64,000 nt of DNA from Pelagibacteraceae bacterium AG-414-E02 (GCA_003214615.1 QCLK01000001.1:62001-126000); one strand, 5' to 3'; positions 1,623 to 60,260 are shown, numbered from the stretch's first letter. The notes: generated by a model not told the origin, from the letters alone. Numbers and translations are program-made.

Positions 1623-2561
1623 ATGATTAAAAAAGTATCAATTATAGGTACTGGGGTTATTGGTACCGGTTGGATTATTAGATGTTTAGCCCATAATAAA
1701 AAAGTTATCGCGTTTGATAAAGAAATTAAATTAAAAAAAAAATTAATAGTTGAGATAAAACGTGCGTGGCCTTTTATAAAAAAATTATTTAATAAAAAAA
1801 AACTTAATCTTAAAAATTTTAAATATGTCTCTACAATTGAAGAAGCTGTAAAAACCGCTGATTTTATTCAAGAATGTGCAACAGAAAATTATAATCTAAA
1901 AACAAAATTAATGAAAAATATTGGAAAATTTGCAAAACCAAATGCAATTATTTCCTCTAGTTCATCTGGATTATTACCTACAAAAATTTACTCGAAATGT
2001 AAAAATCCTTCTAGAACAATGATCGGCCATCCTTTCAATCCTGTATATTTGTGTCCAGGTGTTGAAATAGTGCCTGGGAAAAAAACAAATAAATTTTTTC
2101 TAAATAAAGCAAAAAAATTTTATAAATCAATATCGATGAATCCAATCATGGTTAAAAAAGAATTGCCTGGCTACTTATCAGATAGATTGCAGGAAGCTTT
2201 ATGGAGAGAAGCGTTACATATTATTAATGAAGGCTATGCAACAACAGAAGATTTGGACAGAGCCATAGAGGACGGTCCAGGAATGAGATATTCTTTAATG
2301 GGTACTTTTCTTACTTTCCACCTTGCGGGCGGAAAAACTGGAATGAAACATATGTTAAAACAATTTGGCCCAGCGTTAAAATTACCCTGGACAAAATTAA
2401 AAGCACCTAAACTTACAAAAAAATTATCTGACAGAATTATAAAAGGAACAAAACAACAATCAAAAGGTAAGTCAGTAGCTTCTCTATCAAATATAAGAGA
2501 TGAATATCTTGTAAACCTATTAAAAATGAGAAAAAAATACGAAAGCAAAATAAGAAAATAA
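1623..2561 (+). CDS. cdhA: L-carnitine 3-dehydrogenase-like
   Basis: A 312-residue NAD-dependent dehydrogenase of the 3-hydroxyacyl-CoA dehydrogenase superfamily. The N-terminal Rossmann motif is GTGVIG at residues 9-14. The C-terminal part carries the block EDGPGMRYSLMGTF followed by FGPALKLPW, which I associate with L-carnitine dehydrogenases (carnitine to 3-dehydrocarnitine). It abuts the 2OG oxygenase gene without a gap and is followed directly by the GFA gene. A BKACE enzyme, a hotdog thioesterase and a gamma-butyrobetaine dioxygenase-like gene elsewhere in the window supply the neighbouring steps to glycine betaine. The alternative is another 3-hydroxyacid dehydrogenase of the lambda-crystallin type. 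Confidence 0.75.
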   Translation: MIKKVSIIGTGVIGTGWIIRCLAHNKKVIAFDKEIKLKKKLIVEIKRAWPFIKKLFNKKKLNLKNFKYVSTIEEAVKTADFIQECATENYNLKTKLMKNIGKFAKPNAIISSSSSGLLPTKIYSKCKNPSRTMIGHPFNPVYLCPGVEIVPGKKTNKFFLNKAKKFYKSISMNPIMVKKELPGYLSDRLQEALWREALHIINEGYATTEDLDRAIEDGPGMRYSLMGTFLTFHLAGGKTGMKHMLKQFGPALKLPWTKLKAPKLTKKLSDRIIKGTKQQSKGKSVASLSNIRDEYLVNLLKMRKKYESKIRK

Positions 2562-50437: not shown

Positions 50438-52021
50438 CTAACCATTTAATATTAGATCAGATGCTTTTTCTGCAATCATAAGAGTTGGTGCATTTAAATT
50501 TGCACTGGGAATTTCTGGCATCACAGAGGCGTCTACTATTCTCAAATTTTGTATTCCTCTAACTTTTAAATTTTCATCAACAACAGACGTATTATCTGTA
50601 CCCATTTTGCATGTTCCGCATGGATGATAGGCAGTTTCAGCATTAGATCTGATATATTCATTTAATTCATCGTCACTTTTTTTGTCAGAACCGGGACCAA
50701 CTTCTTTTCCTGCATGTTTTGCTAAAGAAGGTTGTGACAGAATTTTTCTAGCAACATGAATGCATTCTCTAGTTTGCTTTAGATCATCCTCATCTTCTAG
50801 GTAATTAAATAATATCTTTGGATAGTCATATGGGTCGGATGAATTAAGGCTAACTGATCCTCTACTTTTTGGATGGTTAGGACTAGCATGTAACTGGTAA
50901 CCGTGGGAATCCGGATTAACTAAACCGTGATTAATTACAAACGAAGGAAAAAAATGAAATTGTATATTTGCAATTTTTCTTTCAGGTGAAGATTTTGCAA
51001 AACCTCCGGCTTCTAAATATGATTGAGAACAAGGACCAGATTTAGATAAAAACCATTGCGCACCAGCAATTATTTTTGGAATTAGCTTCGTATATGTATA
51101 AAGAGTATCTGGAGTTTTGCACTCTTGCATAATATATGTTTCCAAATGATCTTGAAGATTTTTTCCAACACCTTTTAAATCATTAACAACGTCAATTCCT
51201 TTTTCTTTTAAATGATTTGCTTCACCAATTCCTGAAACCATTAATAGCTGTGGTGAATTTATTGATCCACCGCTTAATATTAATTCTTTTTCAGCATAAA
51301 CTTTTTCAATTTTATTTTTTATTTTTACTTCAACGCCAATGGCTTTTTTTCCATTAAAAATAATTTTTTCCACAAATGAATTAGAAAAAATGTTTAGATT
51401 TTTTCTACTCTTAATGGGATTTAAATAATACTTTGCTACACTTGCTCTCTCGCCTTTGTGAATTGTAGTGTCAAACATTCCAAACCCCTCTTGATACTCA
51501 CCATTCATATCTGGATTAATTTTGTGCCCTGCTTCTGAAGCTGCTCCTAAAAAAGCATTAAATAAAGGATTCTTATTTTTTGATTGGTCAACAGGAAGCA
51601 AACCCAAAGAACCTCTATACTGATTTTCTCCACCAGACCATGTTTCTATTTTTTTAAAATAAGGAAGAATTTTGTCATAGGACCAAGATTTTAAACCAAA
51701 GTTTTCCCATCGTTTATAGTCATTTTTATTTCCTCTTACAAAAACCATTCCATTGTGAGCAGAGCATCCTCCGATCATTTTTCCCCTTGGACAAAATAAT
51801 CTTCTGTTATTTAAATATGGTTCAGGTTCAGAATAATATTTCCAGTTATATTTTGGATCATGCATCGTATATAATAATGCCAGTGGCATTTTAACTTTCC
51901 AAATATCGCTTGATTGACCAGCTTCAAAAACTGCAACTCTGTTATTTTCATCTTCCGATAGTCTGTTTGAAAGAACGCATCCAGCTGATCCAGCTCCTAT
52001 GATTATATAATCAAATTTCAT
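50438..52021 (-). CDS. betA: Choline dehydrogenase-like GMC oxidoreductase
   Basis: A 527-residue FAD-dependent GMC oxidoreductase of BetA length. The dinucleotide motif is IIGAGSAGCVLSNRL, the GMC signature includes GGCSAHNGMVFVRG, and the C-terminal catalytic His lies in AYHPCGTCKMG. It oxidises an alcohol, probably choline, to betaine aldehyde at the membrane. It overlaps the HD oxygenase gene by 4 bp. No betaine aldehyde dehydrogenase is adjacent, though two suitable enzymes lie at 2982 and 61716. Other GMC substrates are possible, so betA is tentative. Confidence 0.78.
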   Translation of the reverse strand: MKFDYIIIGAGSAGCVLSNRLSEDENNRVAVFEAGQSSDIWKVKMPLALLYTMHDPKYNWKYYSEPEPYLNNRRLFCPRGKMIGGCSAHNGMVFVRGNKNDYKRWENFGLKSWSYDKILPYFKKIETWSGGENQYRGSLGLLPVDQSKNKNPLFNAFLGAASEAGHKINPDMNGEYQEGFGMFDTTIHKGERASVAKYYLNPIKSRKNLNIFSNSFVEKIIFNGKKAIGVEVKIKNKIEKVYAEKELILSGGSINSPQLLMVSGIGEANHLKEKGIDVVNDLKGVGKNLQDHLETYIMQECKTPDTLYTYTKLIPKIIAGAQWFLSKSGPCSQSYLEAGGFAKSSPERKIANIQFHFFPSFVINHGLVNPDSHGYQLHASPNHPKSRGSVSLNSSDPYDYPKILFNYLEDEDDLKQTRECIHVARKILSQPSLAKHAGKEVGPGSDKKSDDELNEYIRSNAETAYHPCGTCKMGTDNTSVVDENLKVRGIQNLRIVDASVMPEIPSANLNAPTLMIAEKASDLILNG

Positions 52022-52554
52022 ATTAATTTAGAAGTTAAAAGATTTTTATATTCGTTTATTCCTTTAATTTTTAATCCAAATTTTTTTGCTGCTTCATCAA
52101 ACTTTCTTAACTTTACTGCTTCTTCAAAAAACTCATTTTTTTCAAATTGCTTAGCTTCGCTTTTGTTCATAATTCCACCTTGTAATTTTAAACTTACTTT
52201 TGATGCCTTTGAAAGTAAGCGGAAATACTTATCTTTTCTCGCCAAATATCTTTTTGCTTTTACGTGGTATTTAATAGGTCCCAATACTTCTTTTATAAAA
52301 TATTTTTTTAAAAATTTAAAACCAACTTCCTCATGTTTTCCATTCTTCATTTCATTTACCAGCATATCGGGATTTTCTAAAATAAAATGTCCATAATCAT
52401 GCAATAAACTTGAGCAAATAAGATTGCTCGAGCATTTCGCTTTTTCTGCAAGCATAGCTGTTTGTATCATGTGTTCGGTCATTGTAACTTTTTCACCTAT
52501 ATAAAGAGTTTTGTTATTTAAATAAGAAGATATAATTTTATCAATTATATTCAT
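52018..52554 (-). CDS. HD-domain mixed-valent diiron oxygenase, PhnZ/TmpB-like
   Basis: A 178-residue HD-domain protein that aligns by motif with PhnZ. Y18 and E21 (YIGE), H28, H52-D53 (LLHDYGH), H74 (KHEEVG), H97 and K101 (HVKAKRY) and D153 (FDEAAK) sit at nearly constant offsets from PhnZ Y24, E27, H34, H58-D59, H80, H104, K108 and D161. PhnZ cleaves the C-P bond of a hydroxylated aminoethylphosphonate; TmpB does so on a trimethylated one, giving glycine betaine and phosphate. It shares an operon with a TauD oxygenase and a GMC enzyme. The exact phosphonate is unproved. Confidence 0.75.
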   Translation of the reverse strand: MNIIDKIISSYLNNKTLYIGEKVTMTEHMIQTAMLAEKAKCSSNLICSSLLHDYGHFILENPDMLVNEMKNGKHEEVGFKFLKKYFIKEVLGPIKYHVKAKRYLARKDKYFRLLSKASKVSLKLQGGIMNKSEAKQFEKNEFFEEAVKLRKFDEAAKKFGLKIKGINEYKNLLTSKLI

Positions 52555-52563
52555 TTTAGAAAA

Positions 52564-53391
52564 CTAATGTGGTTTGTCGCCTTCTATCGCAATTCTGTCC
52601 ATTATTCTTTCGTATCCTAGTCCTTTGCCAGGAAAAAAATCTGTTAAACCTTGATGCAAAGTACTTCTATTATCCCAAATGGCAACAGCATTTTCCGTCC
52701 ATTTAAATCTACAGGTAAAATCGAGTCGTTCTTGATGCTTAAAAATTTCATTTAAAATTTCATCACTTTCTTTTTTATCCATATCATTAATTTTTTTTGT
52801 ATACATACTGTTCACATATAAAATTTTTTTACCAGTTTCTGGATGCGTTCTTACTACTGGATGTATATTAGAATATTCGTCCATATTTCCATTACCAGAC
52901 ATTTTTTCATATTTATCTACAAATGCCGCGGCACCTAAAGAACTATGAATGGCAGTTTTGTTTTTTAGTTTATTTTTAATTTCTTTATCAAGAGTTTCGT
53001 AAGCAATTTCCATATTAGAAAACATGGTGTCACCGCCAACTGGTGGTATTTTTACTGATCTAAGAATAATAACTTTTGTAGGTTTTACATTATAACTTAC
53101 ATCTGTATGCCAAGTTTCTCCCCATTGATGTTTTTCGTTTGGTCCTTTAATTATTCTTATAATTTCTGGATAATTTTCTCTAGGTTTTACATAAACATGT
53201 TTTTCGAGCGGCCCAAAACATTTGGCTAAAGATATTTGATCATCAGCAGTAATATTTTGATTTCTAAAGAAAAGAACTTTGTGCTCTAAAAGGAGTTTAT
53301 TAATTAAATTAAAATTGCTGACTGAAGTATCTGCAAGATTTATTCCGCTTATTTCTGCTCCTAAAGCACCGCTAATTAATTTTACATCCAT
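52564..53391 (-). CDS. TauD/TfdA-family 2OG-Fe(II) dioxygenase
   Basis: A 275-residue taurine dioxygenase-like enzyme with iron ligands H95 and D97 (ETWHTDVSY) and H246 (STLHQGL), followed by the 2-oxoglutarate-binding Arg near R262. Its gene lies 9 bp upstream of the PhnZ/TmpB-like gene. In known pathways a 2OG enzyme hydroxylates the phosphonate before the HD oxygenase cleaves it, so this is a candidate first step. A taurine or other sulfonate/betaine substrate is the alternative. Confidence 0.87.
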   Translation of the reverse strand: MDVKLISGALGAEISGINLADTSVSNFNLINKLLLEHKVLFFRNQNITADDQISLAKCFGPLEKHVYVKPRENYPEIIRIIKGPNEKHQWGETWHTDVSYNVKPTKVIILRSVKIPPVGGDTMFSNMEIAYETLDKEIKNKLKNKTAIHSSLGAAAFVDKYEKMSGNGNMDEYSNIHPVVRTHPETGKKILYVNSMYTKKINDMDKKESDEILNEIFKHQERLDFTCRFKWTENAVAIWDNRSTLHQGLTDFFPGKGLGYERIMDRIAIEGDKPH

Positions 53392-53427: not shown

Positions 53428-53892
53428 TTAAATCTTTTTTAATTTGTTTAAAAAAACCAATTTATTAGTATCAAATTTTGCTGAATTTTTTTTTATACAA
53501 TCGTCCATAAGAACTATTCTATCAGCATCAAATTCTGTAACTTTTCTTTTGTTAAGATCTACATATAACGATAGAACTTCGTTTGTTGCAGCTAGATACT
53601 TTTTCTCTTTGTGAAACATAGAAAGTCTGTAATGAATTCTTTTTTTATCGTGATCAACGTAGGTCAAATGCGTTTCAACTTCCTCTCCCAATCTTACCTC
53701 TTGATTATAAATAGTATGCATTTCAGCTACAAAAGTAGTTTTTTTATCTTTTTTTGCAGATTCACCGCCCATTTTGAAATTATCTAGCATGACATCTGCA
53801 GCTATATCAAAAATACGAACATAGAAAGCCACATTCAGATGACCGTTATAATCTGTCCATTCTTTTATTACTTTTTCCGTTTTTAAAATCAT
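53428..53892 (-). CDS. Hotdog-fold thioesterase (betainyl-CoA thioesterase candidate)
   Basis: A 154-residue 4HBT-type hotdog thioesterase. The active-site region reads TDYNGHLNVAFYVRIFD with the catalytic-type Asp. It is divergent, by a 34-bp gap, from the BKACE gene, and in carnitine-degrading bacteria a thioesterase of this kind hydrolyses betainyl-CoA made by the BKACE enzyme to glycine betaine. It is also the first gene of the TauD-HD-GMC operon. The carnitine role is inferred from context. Confidence 0.8.
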   Translation of the reverse strand: MILKTEKVIKEWTDYNGHLNVAFYVRIFDIAADVMLDNFKMGGESAKKDKKTTFVAEMHTIYNQEVRLGEEVETHLTYVDHDKKRIHYRLSMFHKEKKYLAATNEVLSLYVDLNKRKVTEFDADRIVLMDDCIKKNSAKFDTNKLVFLNKLKKI

Positions 53893-53926: not shown

Positions 53927-54814
53927 ATGAATAATAAAGTTTTTGTTTCTTGTGCAGTAACTGGATCGGGTGATACAGCAAAAAAACATCCTGATTTGCC
54001 AAAAACCCCTGAACAAATAGCAAAGGCAGCAATCGAAGCAGCTAAAGCTGGAGCAGCTATTGCTCATATTCATGTAAGAGAAAAAGATGGAACTCCAAGT
54101 AGAAGATTAGAATTATATAAAGAAGTCGTTGATAGAATTCGTTCTAGTGATACAGATGTTGTTTTAAATTTAACTACAGGCATGGGTGGTGACCTGGATA
54201 TCGGACAAGGAAAAAATCCTTTAGAGTTTGGACCATTAACAGATATGGCAAATGTCATGGAAAGAATTGCTAATGCAGAACAATTTTTACCAGAAATATG
54301 TACGCTAGATTGTGGAACATTAAATTTTGGAGATAGCTCTGTAATTACTGTAAACACACCTAATGATTTGAGAAAGGCTGCTAAAAGGTTACAAGAAATA
54401 AATGTTAAACCTGAAATCGAGGCTTTTGATTTAGGAAACATGTGGTTTGGAGCACAATTATATAAAGAAGGGTTGCTTAATGATCCCCCAATGTTTCAAA
54501 TGTGCCTTGGTATACCATGGGGGGCGCCTGCCACTACTTCAGCCATGCAAGCAATGAAAGATATTATGCCAAAAGAAGGCATCTGGTCAGGCTTTGCAAT
54601 ATCAAAAAATGAAATGCCTTTTGTAGCTCAAACAGTGGTCATGGGTGGCAATCCAAGAGTGGGGCTTGAAGATAATTTGTATTTATCTAAAGGAAAACTA
54701 GCTACTAACGCTCAATTAGTTGAGAAAGCAATAAGAATTGTAAATGATCTTGGCGTTTCAATTATGACTCCTGCAGAAACTAGAGAAAAGTTAAAATTAA
54801 AAAATTATAAATAA
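53927..54814 (+). CDS. cdhC: BKACE enzyme, probable 3-dehydrocarnitine cleavage
   Basis: A 295-residue beta-keto acid cleavage enzyme (DUF849). The zinc His pair is H47 and H49 in IAHIHVRE; ALTGSG-type start is present as SCAVTGSG, and FAISKNEMPF and GGNPRVGLEDN are typical. The carnitine member combines 3-dehydrocarnitine and acetyl-CoA into betainyl-CoA and acetoacetate. The divergent thioesterase gene and the carnitine dehydrogenase-like gene at 1623 support that substrate, but BKACE enzymes vary widely. Confidence 0.83.
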   Translation: MNNKVFVSCAVTGSGDTAKKHPDLPKTPEQIAKAAIEAAKAGAAIAHIHVREKDGTPSRRLELYKEVVDRIRSSDTDVVLNLTTGMGGDLDIGQGKNPLEFGPLTDMANVMERIANAEQFLPEICTLDCGTLNFGDSSVITVNTPNDLRKAAKRLQEINVKPEIEAFDLGNMWFGAQLYKEGLLNDPPMFQMCLGIPWGAPATTSAMQAMKDIMPKEGIWSGFAISKNEMPFVAQTVVMGGNPRVGLEDNLYLSKGKLATNAQLVEKAIRIVNDLGVSIMTPAETREKLKLKNYK

Positions 54815-55033: not shown

Positions 55034-55822
55034 TTAATCTAGCCTTAGTGCATTTCCATCAACTCCGATAACTTGACCAGAAATTCTTTCAGCTTCGTCT
55101 GAAATTAAAAAAGAACAAAACCTACCAATATCTTCTTCATATATCCAACAATTCATAGAGGCCATTGATATAAATTCTTTTTCTATTTTTTTCCTTGATA
55201 TTTTTAAAAAATTTGCTTTATCTTTTATTACCCTTACCATTCGATTACCTTTTATAGTCCCAGGACAAATTGCATTAACACGAATTTTAAATTTTCCAAG
55301 TTCCATGGCCAAAGTTTTTGTCAATCCAACAACAGCCCATTTGCTTGCTGCGTAAGGAGATCTTAGTGGAAAACCCATAATCCCGGCTCCGGAAGAAACA
55401 TTTATGATTGACCCACCTCTATTTTTTTTAATCATAGGTATTGCTAATTTTGTAAAGTAAAAGTGACTAATAACATTAATTTTAAGAGTTTTTTCCCAAT
55501 CTTCAGATTTTAATTTTTCTATTGTTCCTGTAGGTCCAGCAATTCCAACATTATTTATTAGTGCATCAATTTTTTTTGTTTTTTTTTTAATTTTATCAAA
55601 AAAATTTTCAACATCGTATTCATCAGAAGCATCACATTCATGAATAAATAATCTTTTATTATTTAAAGGATGTTTTTTTATCTTATTTATATTTTTTACA
55701 TCAATATCACAAAGATATACGCTTGCACCTTTGGATAAAAATATTTTTGCTGCTGCCCAGCCTATTCCTGAACCTCCAGCTGAAATGATTATTTTTTTAT
55801 TTTTGAGATTTAGCAACGCCAT
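55034..55822 (-). CDS. Short-chain dehydrogenase/reductase
   Basis: A 262-residue classical SDR. The cofactor motif is SAGGSGIG (in place of TGxxxGIG), with NNVG, the catalytic Ser in NVSSGAG and Y-x-x-x-K in SPYAASKWA. The start overlaps the 3' end of the betaine ATPase gene by 26 bp, so the SDR is part of the proXWV operon. A substrate related to a betaine or carnitine compound is possible. Confidence 0.87.
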   Translation of the reverse strand: MALLNLKNKKIIISAGGSGIGWAAAKIFLSKGASVYLCDIDVKNINKIKKHPLNNKRLFIHECDASDEYDVENFFDKIKKKTKKIDALINNVGIAGPTGTIEKLKSEDWEKTLKINVISHFYFTKLAIPMIKKNRGGSIINVSSGAGIMGFPLRSPYAASKWAVVGLTKTLAMELGKFKIRVNAICPGTIKGNRMVRVIKDKANFLKISRKKIEKEFISMASMNCWIYEEDIGRFCSFLISDEAERISGQVIGVDGNALRLD

Positions 55823-56852
55823 TTGAGTGGGTTTTAGTTAAGGCTTTAGATAATTCTTTATCAGTAATATATCCTTTTACATTTCCACTTTTGTCAACCA
55901 CTTCAACTGTTGCTGGTGTTAAGCAAACTTTTGGTAAAAACTCATCTAGAAAAGTATCTTCTTTAACTTTAATTGTGTTTGAATTTTTTGCTCCTTTAAA
56001 TTGCTGTGGTGAAACCATAATTATTTTAGCCTTAATTACTTTAGCTCTATTTACATCTTTTACAAATGCTGCAACATAATCATCTGCGGGTTTCATAATA
56101 ATGTCTATCGGTGTTCCAACCTGAACTAATCTTCCACCATTTAAAATTCCTATATGATCACCTAGTCTTAACGATTCATCTAAGTCATGAGTTATAAATA
56201 CTATCGTTTTTTTTAACTCAGCTTGTAAATCAATAAGTTGTTTTTGCATATCACTTCGTATAAGTGGATCAAGTGCGCTGAAGGCTTCGTCCATTAACAT
56301 AATGTCAGTATTGGTTGCTAAAGCTCTAGCGAGACCTACTCTTTGCTGCATACCACCTGATAGTTGGTTTGGATATTGATGCTCAAAACCATTTAAACCC
56401 ACAGCATCTATTTTTTCCATAGCCACTTTTTCTATTTCATTTTTATCTTTGCCTTGGACTTCAAGACCATAACCAACATTTTGAATAACTGTTTTATGCG
56501 GAAATAATCCAAATCTTTGAAATACCATGCTCATCTTATGTCTTCTAAAATCGATTAATTTTTTTTGATCCAATTGCATTACATTAGTTCCTTCTACCGA
56601 AACCTCACCTGAAGTTGGATCAATTAATCTATTAATATGACGAATTAGAGTTGATTTTCCTGATCCAGATAAACCCATGCAAACAAAAGTTTCTCCTTCT
56701 TCAACATTGATTGAAACATTATCAAGACCAACTGTATGACCTGTTTCTTCTAAAACTTGTTCCTTTGATGCTCCTTCTTGTACCATAGGAAGTACTTTGG
56801 AAGGGTTTTCACCAAAAATTTTATAAACATTTTTAATTTCTATTTTTGCCAT
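55797..56852 (-). CDS. proV: Glycine betaine/proline ABC transporter ATPase
   Basis: A 351-residue ProV-type ATPase. Walker A is GLSGSGKST, the signature LSGGMQQRVGLA, Walker B MLMDEAFSALD. The N-terminal 50 residues are the ProV-specific extension, and a short C-terminal CBS-like segment is present. It overlaps the permease gene by 1 bp and the SDR gene by 26 bp. It is the only classical proV in this window apart from the TMAO-type one at 24009 and could also serve the ATPase-less system at 4422-6386. Confidence 0.9.
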   Translation of the reverse strand: MAKIEIKNVYKIFGENPSKVLPMVQEGASKEQVLEETGHTVGLDNVSINVEEGETFVCMGLSGSGKSTLIRHINRLIDPTSGEVSVEGTNVMQLDQKKLIDFRRHKMSMVFQRFGLFPHKTVIQNVGYGLEVQGKDKNEIEKVAMEKIDAVGLNGFEHQYPNQLSGGMQQRVGLARALATNTDIMLMDEAFSALDPLIRSDMQKQLIDLQAELKKTIVFITHDLDESLRLGDHIGILNGGRLVQVGTPIDIIMKPADDYVAAFVKDVNRAKVIKAKIIMVSPQQFKGAKNSNTIKVKEDTFLDEFLPKVCLTPATVEVVDKSGNVKGYITDKELSKALTKTHSNGVAKSQK

Positions 56853-57868
56853 TATTTTTTCTTTTTCTTCGTATGTTGAACTCTTTCTTGCATTCTTTCA
56901 CCATATGATTGCGTAATTCTATCAAAAATTATAGCTAAAAGTACAATGGCTATTCCAGCTTCTGTTGCCATACCAACATTAAGCTGTTGTAATCCAAGTA
57001 ACACCTCATCTCCTATTCCTCTAGTGCCTATCATAGAAGCAATTACTACCATTGCTAAAGCCATCATCGTACATTGGTTTATTCCTTGCATTATATTCGG
57101 TAAAGCCAAAGGAAGTTGTACACCCCATAGTTTTTGTTTTTTATTTGCTCCAAAAGCTTCTGCTGCTTCAATTACTTCTTTATCAACCAATCTTATTCCA
57201 AGATCGGTTAACCTAATAAGTGGCGGTACAGCATAAACGAAAATCGCAACTATTGCAGGAACAGCTCCTAATCCAAATAATAAAATTCCCGGAATTAAAT
57301 AACAAAAACTTGGTATGGTTTGCATTAAATCAAGTATCGGTAATAATGCATTTCTTACTTTTTTATTTCGAGCCATGGCTATTCCAATAGGAATGCCAAT
57401 TACTAAACAAAGCAACATTCCAATAACGACAATGGTTGTTGTCATTATACATTTGTCCCAATATCTAGGACTAAGAAATCCAAGAAAAAAAACACAGAAA
57501 CCAACCATTATTGTTGTTCCCATTTGTTTTCCGCTTGCAAAGTAAGCAAGCAATATAACTGAAATCATAACTATTGGCCAAGGAAGACCTACTAAGAAAT
57601 TTTTCATTTTACCATATAGACCTAGTAAGAAAAAATTAATTCCTTCAAACATAATTCCGTATTTAGCAATCAGAATATCAAACCATTTATTTAGAAATGG
57701 CATTAATGGAAAGTCTAACCATTTCGGCCAGTCCCCTAACCAAGAAGGATCTGTAAATAAAACTAAAACGCTTTCAGGTCTATATTTCGAAGTTGTGTAA
57801 GCAATAACAACCATTGCAACGAAAATTACTAGATAAATTAAATTAATATATTTTTTATACTTTTCCAT
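56852..57868 (-). CDS. proW: Glycine betaine/proline ABC transporter permease
   Basis: A 338-residue ProW-type permease with an extended N-terminal part (first helix at residues 8-25) and the BPD_transp_1 core containing LPILDLMQTIPSFCYLIPG in part and GVQLPLALPNIMQGINQ. It resembles the permease at 4422 but keeps the longer N-terminus. It is coupled to proV by a one-base overlap and separated from proX by a strong hairpin. Confidence 0.9.
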   Translation of the reverse strand: MEKYKKYINLIYLVIFVAMVVIAYTTSKYRPESVLVLFTDPSWLGDWPKWLDFPLMPFLNKWFDILIAKYGIMFEGINFFLLGLYGKMKNFLVGLPWPIVMISVILLAYFASGKQMGTTIMVGFCVFFLGFLSPRYWDKCIMTTTIVVIGMLLCLVIGIPIGIAMARNKKVRNALLPILDLMQTIPSFCYLIPGILLFGLGAVPAIVAIFVYAVPPLIRLTDLGIRLVDKEVIEAAEAFGANKKQKLWGVQLPLALPNIMQGINQCTMMALAMVVIASMIGTRGIGDEVLLGLQQLNVGMATEAGIAIVLLAIIFDRITQSYGERMQERVQHTKKKKK

Positions 57869-57885
57869 CTATATGCCTTAAAAAA

Positions 57886-57911
57886 ACTAAGAGCCCGTAA
57901 GGGCTCTTAGT
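57886..57911 (-). terminator. Stem-loop after proX
   Basis: A perfect 11-bp hairpin (57886-57896 with 57901-57911; arm ACTAAGAGCCC, GTAA tetraloop). In the minus-strand transcript it follows the proX stop and is trailed by TTTTTT after a few bases, so it can act as a partial terminator that lowers proW-proV expression relative to proX. Confidence 0.82.
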
Positions 57912-57928
57912 ATAAGATTTTTTAAAAA

Positions 57929-58954
57929 TTAAAGCGCAGCTTTAACTTTTTTCGCAACATCTGCTGGAACCCATTTAGTCCATGAATTAGAGGACTTTAA
58001 GTAATTCTTAGCAGTTGCTTCCATATCTCCACCAGATTCATCAATATAGAAAGCAAGTGATTTGTTAACTTCAGCTGTTGGTAATGAGTACTGTTTAACA
58101 AAGTCAATGATTGGTTTGTTTGCTGGATCGTTTGCAAACTTAGTTGTAGCCGATTTTGTTAAAGCCATATCCACATAAGCACTTGCACATGTTTTTGTGT
58201 ATGCATCAGGACCATCAGCTTTAATTTTTTCAACTACTGCCATCATTTTTGTCCAACAAGCATTGTCGTATGCTGGTTCTTTAAGTTGAACAAGATCAAC
58301 TTTTCCCATTAGACCTGTTGGTGTCCAGTAGTAAGAAAATACTGGTTTACCTTTTTTAAATGCACCGGCAATCGCTGCATCTAAAGCTCCACCAGAACCT
58401 GGATCAAAGTTAGTGTAATATTTGTCTAGACCATAAACTTTGTGTTTAACCAAATTAATCGTGTAGCAAGTCCATCCTGAAATACAGCTAGTCATTCTAC
58501 CTTTTCCAGGTGCCTCAGGATCAGCAAATAGTTTTGCTATCTCAGGCTTTTTCATATCTTCAACGCTTTTTAAACCGTACTTATCTGAAGTTGCTTTATC
58601 TACGTAAAATCCTTGTGTAGATGAAGGAGTGTTAACTCCCAGTTCAACAATTTGTCCTTTTGCAACAGCCTCTTCGTGCATTTGAACAATATTATCTCTC
58701 CAAACTTCAGTGATAATGTCTAGCTGACCATCGTAGTGTGCAGCCATTATTGGACTAGTACTACCTTTTGTAACTTGAACATCGCAGCCATAACCTTTTT
58801 CAAGAATGAAACCAACTATAGCCGTATGTACGTTCGCACTATCCCAATCGAAATCTCCCAAATGTACTTTGCAGGCAGCATTAGCACTAGTTGTTCCTAG
58901 AGCCATTACTCCAACAAATACAAAAGAAAGTAATAGTTTTTTAAGAAATTTCAT
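57929..58954 (-). CDS. proX: Glycine betaine/proline ABC substrate-binding protein
   Basis: A 341-residue OpuAC-family binding protein with a signal peptide (MKFLKKLLLS, hydrophobic core, cleavage near SANA-A). Aromatic pocket residues appear in DFDWDSAN, EVWRDN and FSYYWTP. A GGGGGAAA ribosome-binding site precedes the ATG. It heads a proX-proW-proV-SDR operon. Its upstream gap (178 bp) is shared with the divergent gamma-butyrobetaine dioxygenase-like gene, which hints at joint control and at carnitine/butyrobetaine as possible ligands. Confidence 0.9.
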   Translation of the reverse strand: MKFLKKLLLSFVFVGVMALGTTSANAACKVHLGDFDWDSANVHTAIVGFILEKGYGCDVQVTKGSTSPIMAAHYDGQLDIITEVWRDNIVQMHEEAVAKGQIVELGVNTPSSTQGFYVDKATSDKYGLKSVEDMKKPEIAKLFADPEAPGKGRMTSCISGWTCYTINLVKHKVYGLDKYYTNFDPGSGGALDAAIAGAFKKGKPVFSYYWTPTGLMGKVDLVQLKEPAYDNACWTKMMAVVEKIKADGPDAYTKTCASAYVDMALTKSATTKFANDPANKPIIDFVKQYSLPTAEVNKSLAFYIDESGGDMEATAKNYLKSSNSWTKWVPADVAKKVKAAL

Positions 58955-59132: not shown

Positions 59133-60260
59133 ATGACAATAAATATTTCAAAAATTTCTCAAAATGGTTCAGGGTTGGATATTGAATGGAATGACGGAGA
59201 AAAAAGTAATTTTAATTTCATGTGGCTAAGAGATAACTGTCCAACAGCACGTGACAAAGATTCAAGACATAGAATGTTCAACCTGCTAGAAGTTTCTACA
59301 AATATTAGTCCTAAACAATTTAAAATCAACGCAGAAGGAAAATTAGAAATAGAATGGAATGAAGGAAATCACATAAGTTACTATGATCAAAAATGGCTTA
59401 GAGAAAATTGCTACACAATTAATAACAAAAAAAAATATATTTCTCCCTACATTCTATGGAATAATTCACTAAATTCAAAACTTTCAACCATACAAATAGA
59501 ACACGATGAAATAATGGATAATAAAAAAAGTTTAATAAAATGGCTTGAACTTCTTCATTACTATGGAATTGCTATTGTTAAAAATGCCCCGATAGAAAAA
59601 AAATCTGCTTTCCCAATCTTAAATAAAATAGGCAGCATAAGAGAAACTTTTTTCAAAACTCCTTTTGAAGTTATTAATATACCAAAGCCAAATAACTCTG
59701 CTTATACTGCGCATGCATTAAGAAATCATATGGATTTACCTTGGTTTGAAACACCTCCAGGTTATCAATTTTTACATTGTTTAATTAATTCTGCTGAGGG
59801 TGGCCAATCTTCTGCTGTAGATGGTTTTGCAGTAGCTGATTATTTAAAAACGAATGAAAAAGAAACTTTTGAAACTTTGGTGAATATACCACTTAAATTT
59901 AAAGACAATGATTACACTCAAGAATCAATTAGAAGTTTTCATGCTCCAGCTATTACCTTAACAAAAGATAAAGATTTTAATGATATTAGATTTAGTGTTG
60001 CAACAATGGATGCATTAGATTGTCATCCAAATGATATGGAGAAAGTTTATAAAGCTCATCATAAATTTGGCAATTTGCTACACGATGATAAATTTGTGAT
60101 TAGGTTTAGACTTAATCCGGGAGATATCTTTTCTTTTAATAATAGAAGAGTTTTACACGGCAGAACTGCTTTTAATCCTAATTCGGGACATAGACACTTA
60201 CAAGGCTACTATATCGATAGAGATGAAATCATTGGTAGATTAAATTTTTTAAAAAAATAA
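59133..60260 (+). CDS. Gamma-butyrobetaine dioxygenase-like (or TmpA-like) 2OG oxygenase
   Basis: A 375-residue enzyme with the two-part layout of gamma-butyrobetaine dioxygenase: an N-terminal DUF971-like domain (residues ~1-95; MWLRDNC) and a TauD domain with iron ligands H199 and D201 (RNHMD) and H342 (RVLHGRTAF). The Cys cluster that binds zinc in animal enzymes is reduced to a single Cys (C36). It would hydroxylate gamma-butyrobetaine to carnitine. The related TmpA hydroxylates 2-trimethylaminoethylphosphonate, and a TmpB/PhnZ-like gene lies at 52018, so both activities must be considered. It is divergent from proX. Confidence 0.82.
   Translation: MTINISKISQNGSGLDIEWNDGEKSNFNFMWLRDNCPTARDKDSRHRMFNLLEVSTNISPKQFKINAEGKLEIEWNEGNHISYYDQKWLRENCYTINNKKKYISPYILWNNSLNSKLSTIQIEHDEIMDNKKSLIKWLELLHYYGIAIVKNAPIEKKSAFPILNKIGSIRETFFKTPFEVINIPKPNNSAYTAHALRNHMDLPWFETPPGYQFLHCLINSAEGGQSSAVDGFAVADYLKTNEKETFETLVNIPLKFKDNDYTQESIRSFHAPAITLTKDKDFNDIRFSVATMDALDCHPNDMEKVYKAHHKFGNLLHDDKFVIRFRLNPGDIFSFNNRRVLHGRTAFNPNSGHRHLQGYYIDRDEIIGRLNFLKK

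Follow-up and report, generated by a model that had tools for sequence, protein, structure and literature searches.

Do the TauD-type dioxygenase and the HD-domain oxygenase encoded side by side in a SAR11 genome form a dedicated pair that cleaves C-P bonds inside a betaine operon, as an earlier note on this DNA had suggested? Among marine heterotrophs, SAR11 is the most abundant. Pelagibacterales contribute 45% of marine phnZ sequences, which were counted as aminoethylphosphonate genes (PMC9381506), and no publication describing a SAR11 TauD-HD pair turned up in our search of the literature. We analysed a stretch of 64,000 nucleotides (the window) from a SAR11 genome (Pelagibacteraceae); all 80 close relatives fetched by sequence were Pelagibacteraceae or Pelagibacterales.

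Gene organization of the locus

The genes considered are listed below with their positions in the window, their strand and the evidence for their assignment.

1680-2555, plus strand: L-carnitine dehydrogenase homologue (match region); 69% identity to the CDH of locus L128, which scores 334 bits against NF005471 (cut-off 414)
50438-52021, minus strand: GMC oxidoreductase, choline-dehydrogenase-like; above the choline dehydrogenase subfamily cut-off (PRK02106, 724 vs 605 bits)
52018-52554, minus strand: HD-domain diiron oxygenase of the PhnZ/TmpB clade, 178 aa, predicted to cleave C-P bonds; TIGR03276 (168 bits), TmpB model (158 bits), PDB 6npa and 4mlm, residues, tree and fold
52564-53391, minus strand: TauD-type Fe/2-oxoglutarate dioxygenase, 275 aa; PF02668; optional cassette relative to HD
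53428-53892, minus strand: hotdog enzyme, probably a betainyl-CoA thioesterase; aligns with the C-terminal portion of carnitine 3-dehydrogenase (NF005716)
53927-54814, plus strand: BKACE (beta-keto acid cleavage enzyme), expected to cleave 3-dehydrocarnitine; PF05853, 4e-93; conserved neighbour
55034-55822, minus strand: SDR dehydrogenase of the island; domain match; conserved neighbour
55797-58954, minus strand: ProV, ProW and ProX, betaine-type ABC transporter; domain and family matches; conserved neighbour
59133-60260, plus strand: gamma-butyrobetaine-dioxygenase-like enzyme BBOX1; carnitine_bodg 324 bits, below the cut-off of 415; without the N-N-R phosphonate contact of TmpA

The open reading frames, strands and coordinates reported earlier for HD and TauD, with TauD ending 9 bp upstream of HD, were all reproduced. 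On the minus strand the hotdog thioesterase (4HBT) is the first gene of a 4HBT-[TauD]-[HD]-GMC string, with gaps of 36 bp and 9 bp followed by a 4-bp overlap. Across loci TauD and HD are in most cases separated by 0 to 9 bp, while the HD/GMC overlap of 4 bp was found in 90 of 92 loci, a count slightly inflated by contigs shared between the two locus collections. The tightest linkage in the operon is that of HD with GMC, not that of HD with TauD.

The HD protein resembles PhnZ and TmpB

All the PhnZ-type residues that had been ascribed to the HD protein are present: Y18, E21, H28, H52, D53, H74, H97, K101 and D153 align with Y24, E27, H34, H58, D59, H80, H104, K108 and D161 of PhnZ, and also with TmpB. 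These residues, together with H56, S118 and R150, are unchanged in 79 of 79 related SAR11 proteins; K101, S118 and R150 are phosphonate contacts in the PhnZ structure. The same 79 proteins keep the complete diiron ligand pattern H...HD...H...H...D (H28, H52, D53, H74, H97, D153) and the YxxE substrate loop (Y18-x-x-E21), a loop typical of PhnZ and TmpB and missing in MIOX (PMC8177086). At window positions 25 and 29 PhnZ has Q and S, whereas the window protein and TmpB both have M and M.

Among the NCBIfam models, HD matched Phn-HD (TIGR03276) at 1e-49 and TmpB (NF049941) at 2e-46. It scored below the equivalog cut-off of TIGR03276 (168.3 vs 214.6 bits), which Labrenzia TmpB also fails (193.7), and below that of NF049941 (157.9 vs 300 bits), where Labrenzia TmpB reaches 351.8. 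The only real matches in a PDB sequence search were TmpB (6npa, 1e-30) and PhnZ (4mlm, 9e-26). The AF2 model of HD (pLDDT 90.6) retrieved PhnZ (TM 0.89) and TmpB (TM 0.87-0.88) and no other structure at E<0.001; MIOX was a poor match to the predicted fold (E 0.9). The dN/dS of HD was 0.10-0.22. That the confident sequence and fold matches are only PhnZ and TmpB, with no likeness to the HD phosphohydrolases, bears out the earlier assignment of HD to the PhnZ-type oxygenases, and on these grounds HD very probably has C-P oxygenase chemistry of the PhnZ/TmpB type.

Of the characterized systems, the window HD shares its fold and catalytic residues with PhnZ of the PhnY*/PhnZ (2-aminoethylphosphonate) pathway. 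With TmpB of the TmpB/TmpA (trimethylaminoethylphosphonate) pathway of Leisingera caerulea, its best PDB sequence match, it shares the HD fold, the diiron ligands, the YxxE loop and betaine as the expected product, and part of its sister SAR11 lineage is paired with TmpA. The differences are that its neighbour is a taurine-dioxygenase-type TauD and not TmpA, that its score against the TmpB model is well below the cut-off, and that its operon runs on into GMC and is set among carnitine and choline genes.

Relatives of the HD protein and their neighbours

A tree built from 100 HD proteins gathered the SAR11 members linked to TauD/GMC (class a) into one group, with class b (55-60% identity to class a, mostly from the same genus) adjoining it as sister; the SAR11 HD clade and the TmpB clade join at a fork that gives no clear branching order. 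In two of five class-b loci (L044 and L045) a TmpA-like gene is divergently transcribed beside HD. The L045 TmpA reaches 541.7 bits against a curated cut-off of 400 and keeps N-N-R, the phosphonate contacts of TmpA (PMC9296572), while that of L044 shares 76% identity with it; judging by these genes, both genomes likely use trimethylaminoethylphosphonate. A further class-b HD frame (L047:9374-9910) contains an in-frame TAA inside the matched stretch and is perhaps decaying.

One class-a genome (G123) also encodes a TmpA, at 505.7 bits, whose neighbours include GCV_T and FAD/GCV_T genes, an arrangement known from betaine demethylation; its assembly showed no further HD of that type. The more distant SAR11 HD genes (class c) accompany phosphonate-type ABC transporters, as seen by reading the sequences. 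Outside SAR11, about two thirds of the 29 nearest HD genes adjoin TmpA-like genes, one (G419) lies beside a PhnD-type binding protein and PhyH, and another (G391) occurs with class-V aminotransferase and phosphodiesterase-family genes. None of the 29 adjoins a TauD of the window's type.

The TauD protein and its pocket

TauD belongs to PF02668, its closest curated model is taurine dioxygenase, and a search of it with the TmpA/BBOX models gave no match. The earlier note had considered a TauD-type rather than a PhyH-type partner to be odd. PhnY* is a PhyH-family enzyme, unlike the window TauD, but TmpA itself is in the TauD superfamily, so the choice is not unusual as such; what is unusual is a TauD of the taurine-dioxygenase type, which in this survey stood beside a PhnZ/TmpB-type HD only in SAR11.

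As in E. coli TauD, the iron site (2-His-1-Asp; H95, D97, H246), the 2-oxoglutarate arginine (R262) and the oxyanion clamp H65/R266 (E. coli His70/Arg270) are kept in 75 of 75 SAR11 orthologues. The taurine-amine contacts, in contrast, are swapped in all 75: Asp94 to Trp, Asn95 to Gly, Tyr73 to Val, and Phe159 and Phe206 to Tyr (W90, G91, V68, Y161 and Y197 in the window TauD). Asp94, Asn95 and Ser158, which position the amine, are absent, their places being taken by W90, G91 and K160; the roles of these residues and of His70 and Arg270 are those described for taurine dioxygenase (PMC9304159). The kept oxyanion clamp combined with an aromatic, donor-poor amine pocket suggests that the substrate is a quaternary ammonium compound. 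The pocket residues are identical in loci with and without HD, and by its residues TauD looks like an independent quaternary-ammonium oxygenase. Three TauDs from outside SAR11 also carry W90, G91 and Y161, and one of these adjoins a 53%-identical BKACE in a locus with no HD, where a Rieske-type oxygenase and a dimethylglycine-dehydrogenase-like gene were found nearby by reading the sequence. The AlphaFold model of TauD, built on a 7-row alignment, had a pLDDT of 51, too low for structural use.

The surrounding betaine island

BKACE, SDR, ProXWV and the BBOX-like enzyme are kept as neighbours across dozens of loci, many of which also have carnitine dehydrogenase and a citrate-lyase-like gene. 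The carnitine-to-betaine gene set, by predicted activities, is present in the window, comprising the carnitine dehydrogenase homologue, which lies apart from the rest, BKACE and the betainyl-CoA thioesterase. BKACE, the thioesterase and the dehydrogenase homologue are shared with CdhABC-type carnitine degradation; the window differs in that the genes are split over two places and that TauD and HD are added between thioesterase and GMC. The betaine setting claimed earlier was thus borne out as a betaine-producing island, but the hotdog enzyme is assigned to the carnitine route, its match being to the thioesterase portion of carnitine dehydrogenase in fused form.

Gamma-butyrobetaine, carnitine and choline all converge on glycine betaine by known pathways, and from its gene content the island should yield this compound. 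Glycine betaine is also what TmpB forms from hydroxylated trimethylaminoethylphosphonate (PMC10574752). Mainly because island and TmpB share this product, our best guess from context for the HD substrate is hydroxylated trimethylaminoethylphosphonate, which would give betaine and phosphate; we put the chance of this at about one half.

BBOX1 was considered as the hydroxylase feeding HD and set aside, as it has S-V-A where TmpA has N-N-R, and N-N-R occurs in none of the BBOX1 proteins with the region found. It may therefore act on something other than gamma-butyrobetaine or a phosphonate. Nearly all SAR11 BBOX1 orthologues with the region found have S-[VIT]-A. A BBOX2-type match with one in-frame TAG was seen in seven genomes (G100 and G102-G107) of the clade without TauD. 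In several islands a citrate-lyase/RipC-like gene (L128:6668-7525) lies between BKACE and thioesterase, and a relative of this gene comes after the HD gene in G419 (L270).

HD and TauD as optional cassettes

The distribution of the genes was determined in 148 related family genomes of at least 80% completeness, many of them single-cell assemblies or bins, where absence from one genome is weak evidence. GMC was found in 27, TauD in 16 and class-a HD in 8 of the 148, and every genome with class-a HD (8/8) or TauD (16/16) also had GMC (p 5e-7 and 1e-14, respectively). The 27 GMC-positive genomes comprised 6 with both HD and TauD, 2 with HD only, 10 with TauD only and 9 with neither, and no association of HD with TauD was detectable given GMC (Fisher p = 0.40). 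In nine of the ten TauD-only genomes TauD directly adjoins GMC; two of the ten (G053, G200) carry a distant HD of class c at another place.

Along the TauD tree the presence of HD switches at least 6 times, a count that includes two divergent TauD paralogues and one locus where about 3 kb separate HD and TauD, and TauD without HD occurs in several branches. HD and GMC without TauD are also found in a whole clade (e.g. L111, L128), in whose genomes no TauD orthologue was found elsewhere; as this clade is nested within class a, TauD was probably lost there. A correlated-evolution test on the GMC tree counted 6 changes for HD and 3 for TauD, which leaves few independent pairs. Each of the two genes behaves as an optional cassette rather than as half of a locked pair; relatives often retain just one of them, so TauD is probably not an obligatory partner of HD.

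These data weigh against a dedicated two-enzyme pathway, functionally akin to PhnY/PhnZ or TmpA/TmpB, in which TauD would hydroxylate C1 of (trimethyl)aminoethylphosphonate, HD would cleave the product and a taurine-dioxygenase type would have replaced TmpA. The short TauD-HD spacing, the presence of TauD in most class-a HD loci, the conserved His/Arg clamp for the taurine sulfonate, an isostere of phosphonate, and the lack of TmpA in nearly all class-a genomes searched would all agree with it. We nevertheless regard it as doubtful and did not uphold the earlier note's claim of such a pair, since 10 of 148 genomes, as well as those TauD-tree branches, have TauD and GMC but lack class-a HD, 2 of 148 and the nested clade have HD and GMC but lack TauD, and the TauD pocket is the same either way.

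Proposed explanation and alternatives

In the explanation that we prefer, held with a little more confidence than doubt, HD would be a mixed-valent diiron oxygenase performing oxidative C-P cleavage of an alpha-hydroxy aminophosphonate, most likely converting (R)-1-hydroxy-2-trimethylaminoethylphosphonate to glycine betaine and phosphate. It would be an optional cassette in a SAR11 operon of thioesterase, [TauD], [HD] and choline-dehydrogenase-like GMC, within an island that would channel carnitine, gamma-butyrobetaine and choline-like compounds to glycine betaine. TauD would likewise be an optional cassette; its role as a 2-oxoglutarate oxygenase would be independent of HD, with a quaternary-ammonium oxyanion (sulfonate, sulfate ester, carboxylate or phosphonate) as substrate. 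In genomes that have both, TauD may in addition supply HD with hydroxylated phosphonate. If TauD hydroxylated a sulfonate or sulfate ester, betaine aldehyde would be released directly, with no need for HD, whereas a hydroxylated phosphonate would be a stable product for which HD is needed. What we observed is the identity of the genes, the predicted fold, the catalytic residues, the structure of the operon and the distribution; the substrate, the reaction and the source of the hydroxylated intermediate we infer. Against this explanation stand the TauD-less genomes, to which no HD-feeding hydroxylase could be assigned (BBOX1 lacks the phosphonate contacts), the HD scores under both curated cut-offs, the unclear branching of HD and TmpB, and an operon in which neither a phosphonate transporter nor a Pho box was found.

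HD might instead act on another alpha-hydroxyphosphonate, such as 1-hydroxy-2-aminoethylphosphonate, or 1,2-dihydroxyethylphosphonate derived from 2-hydroxyethylphosphonate, and GMC would then oxidise the alcohol side. The tight HD-GMC overlap is consistent with this, and 2-hydroxyethylphosphonate is an important marine phosphonate (PMC9381506). However, 19 of the 27 GMC-positive genomes lack class-a HD, which points to a GMC role independent of HD, and the island together with the TmpA of the sister lineage favours trimethylated amines, so that we consider this reading unlikely.

No phosphonate transporter was found in the operon, a Pho-box search of the window gave 4 matches (4.4 expected) with 0 in the operon, and promoter-like sites in the window were fewer than in shuffles. 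Such a carbon-degradation operon without phosphonate transporter or Pho box would suit an HD enzyme that cleaves the C-C bond of a hydroxylated betaine and has no phosphorus role, and myo-inositol oxygenase shows that HD oxygenases are capable of C-C cleavage (PMC8177086), but the YxxE loop, the invariant K101, S118 and R150, the poor fold match to MIOX and the phosphonate contexts of the sister and outgroup HD genes make this very improbable.

If the HD lineage belongs to the betaine operon, as in our preferred explanation, part of the SAR11 phnZ count may represent betaine-phosphonate metabolism, which would be a supply of carbon and nitrogen as much as of phosphorus. Moreover, the analysis names a distinct type of TauD with a directly testable substrate. 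Tentatively, and with the greater chance of being wrong, we propose that the hydroxylase step of SAR11 C-P cleavage was taken over by an enzyme of the taurine-dioxygenase type whose aromatic pocket accepts quaternary ammonium groups, acting on sulfonate and phosphonate analogues of betaine, with HD kept only where phosphonate is worth using. Were this true, carbon, nitrogen and phosphorus (or sulfur) would be obtained from choline-like compounds through one operon.

Other oxygenase loci

In Novosphingobium (L158:4860-5498) an HD gene of the PhnZ/TmpB-type family is divergent from a phosphocholine-specific phospholipase C. About 1.0 kb past the right end of the window, in the same genome, lies a second 2OG-HD gene pair (L054:2050-3701), consisting of a TmpA/BBOX-like enzyme (338 bits with the TmpA model, cut-off 400) and, directly after it, an HD protein of another kind (39 bits to Phn-HD). 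The pair is present in L043 too and is possibly a further oxygenase pair.
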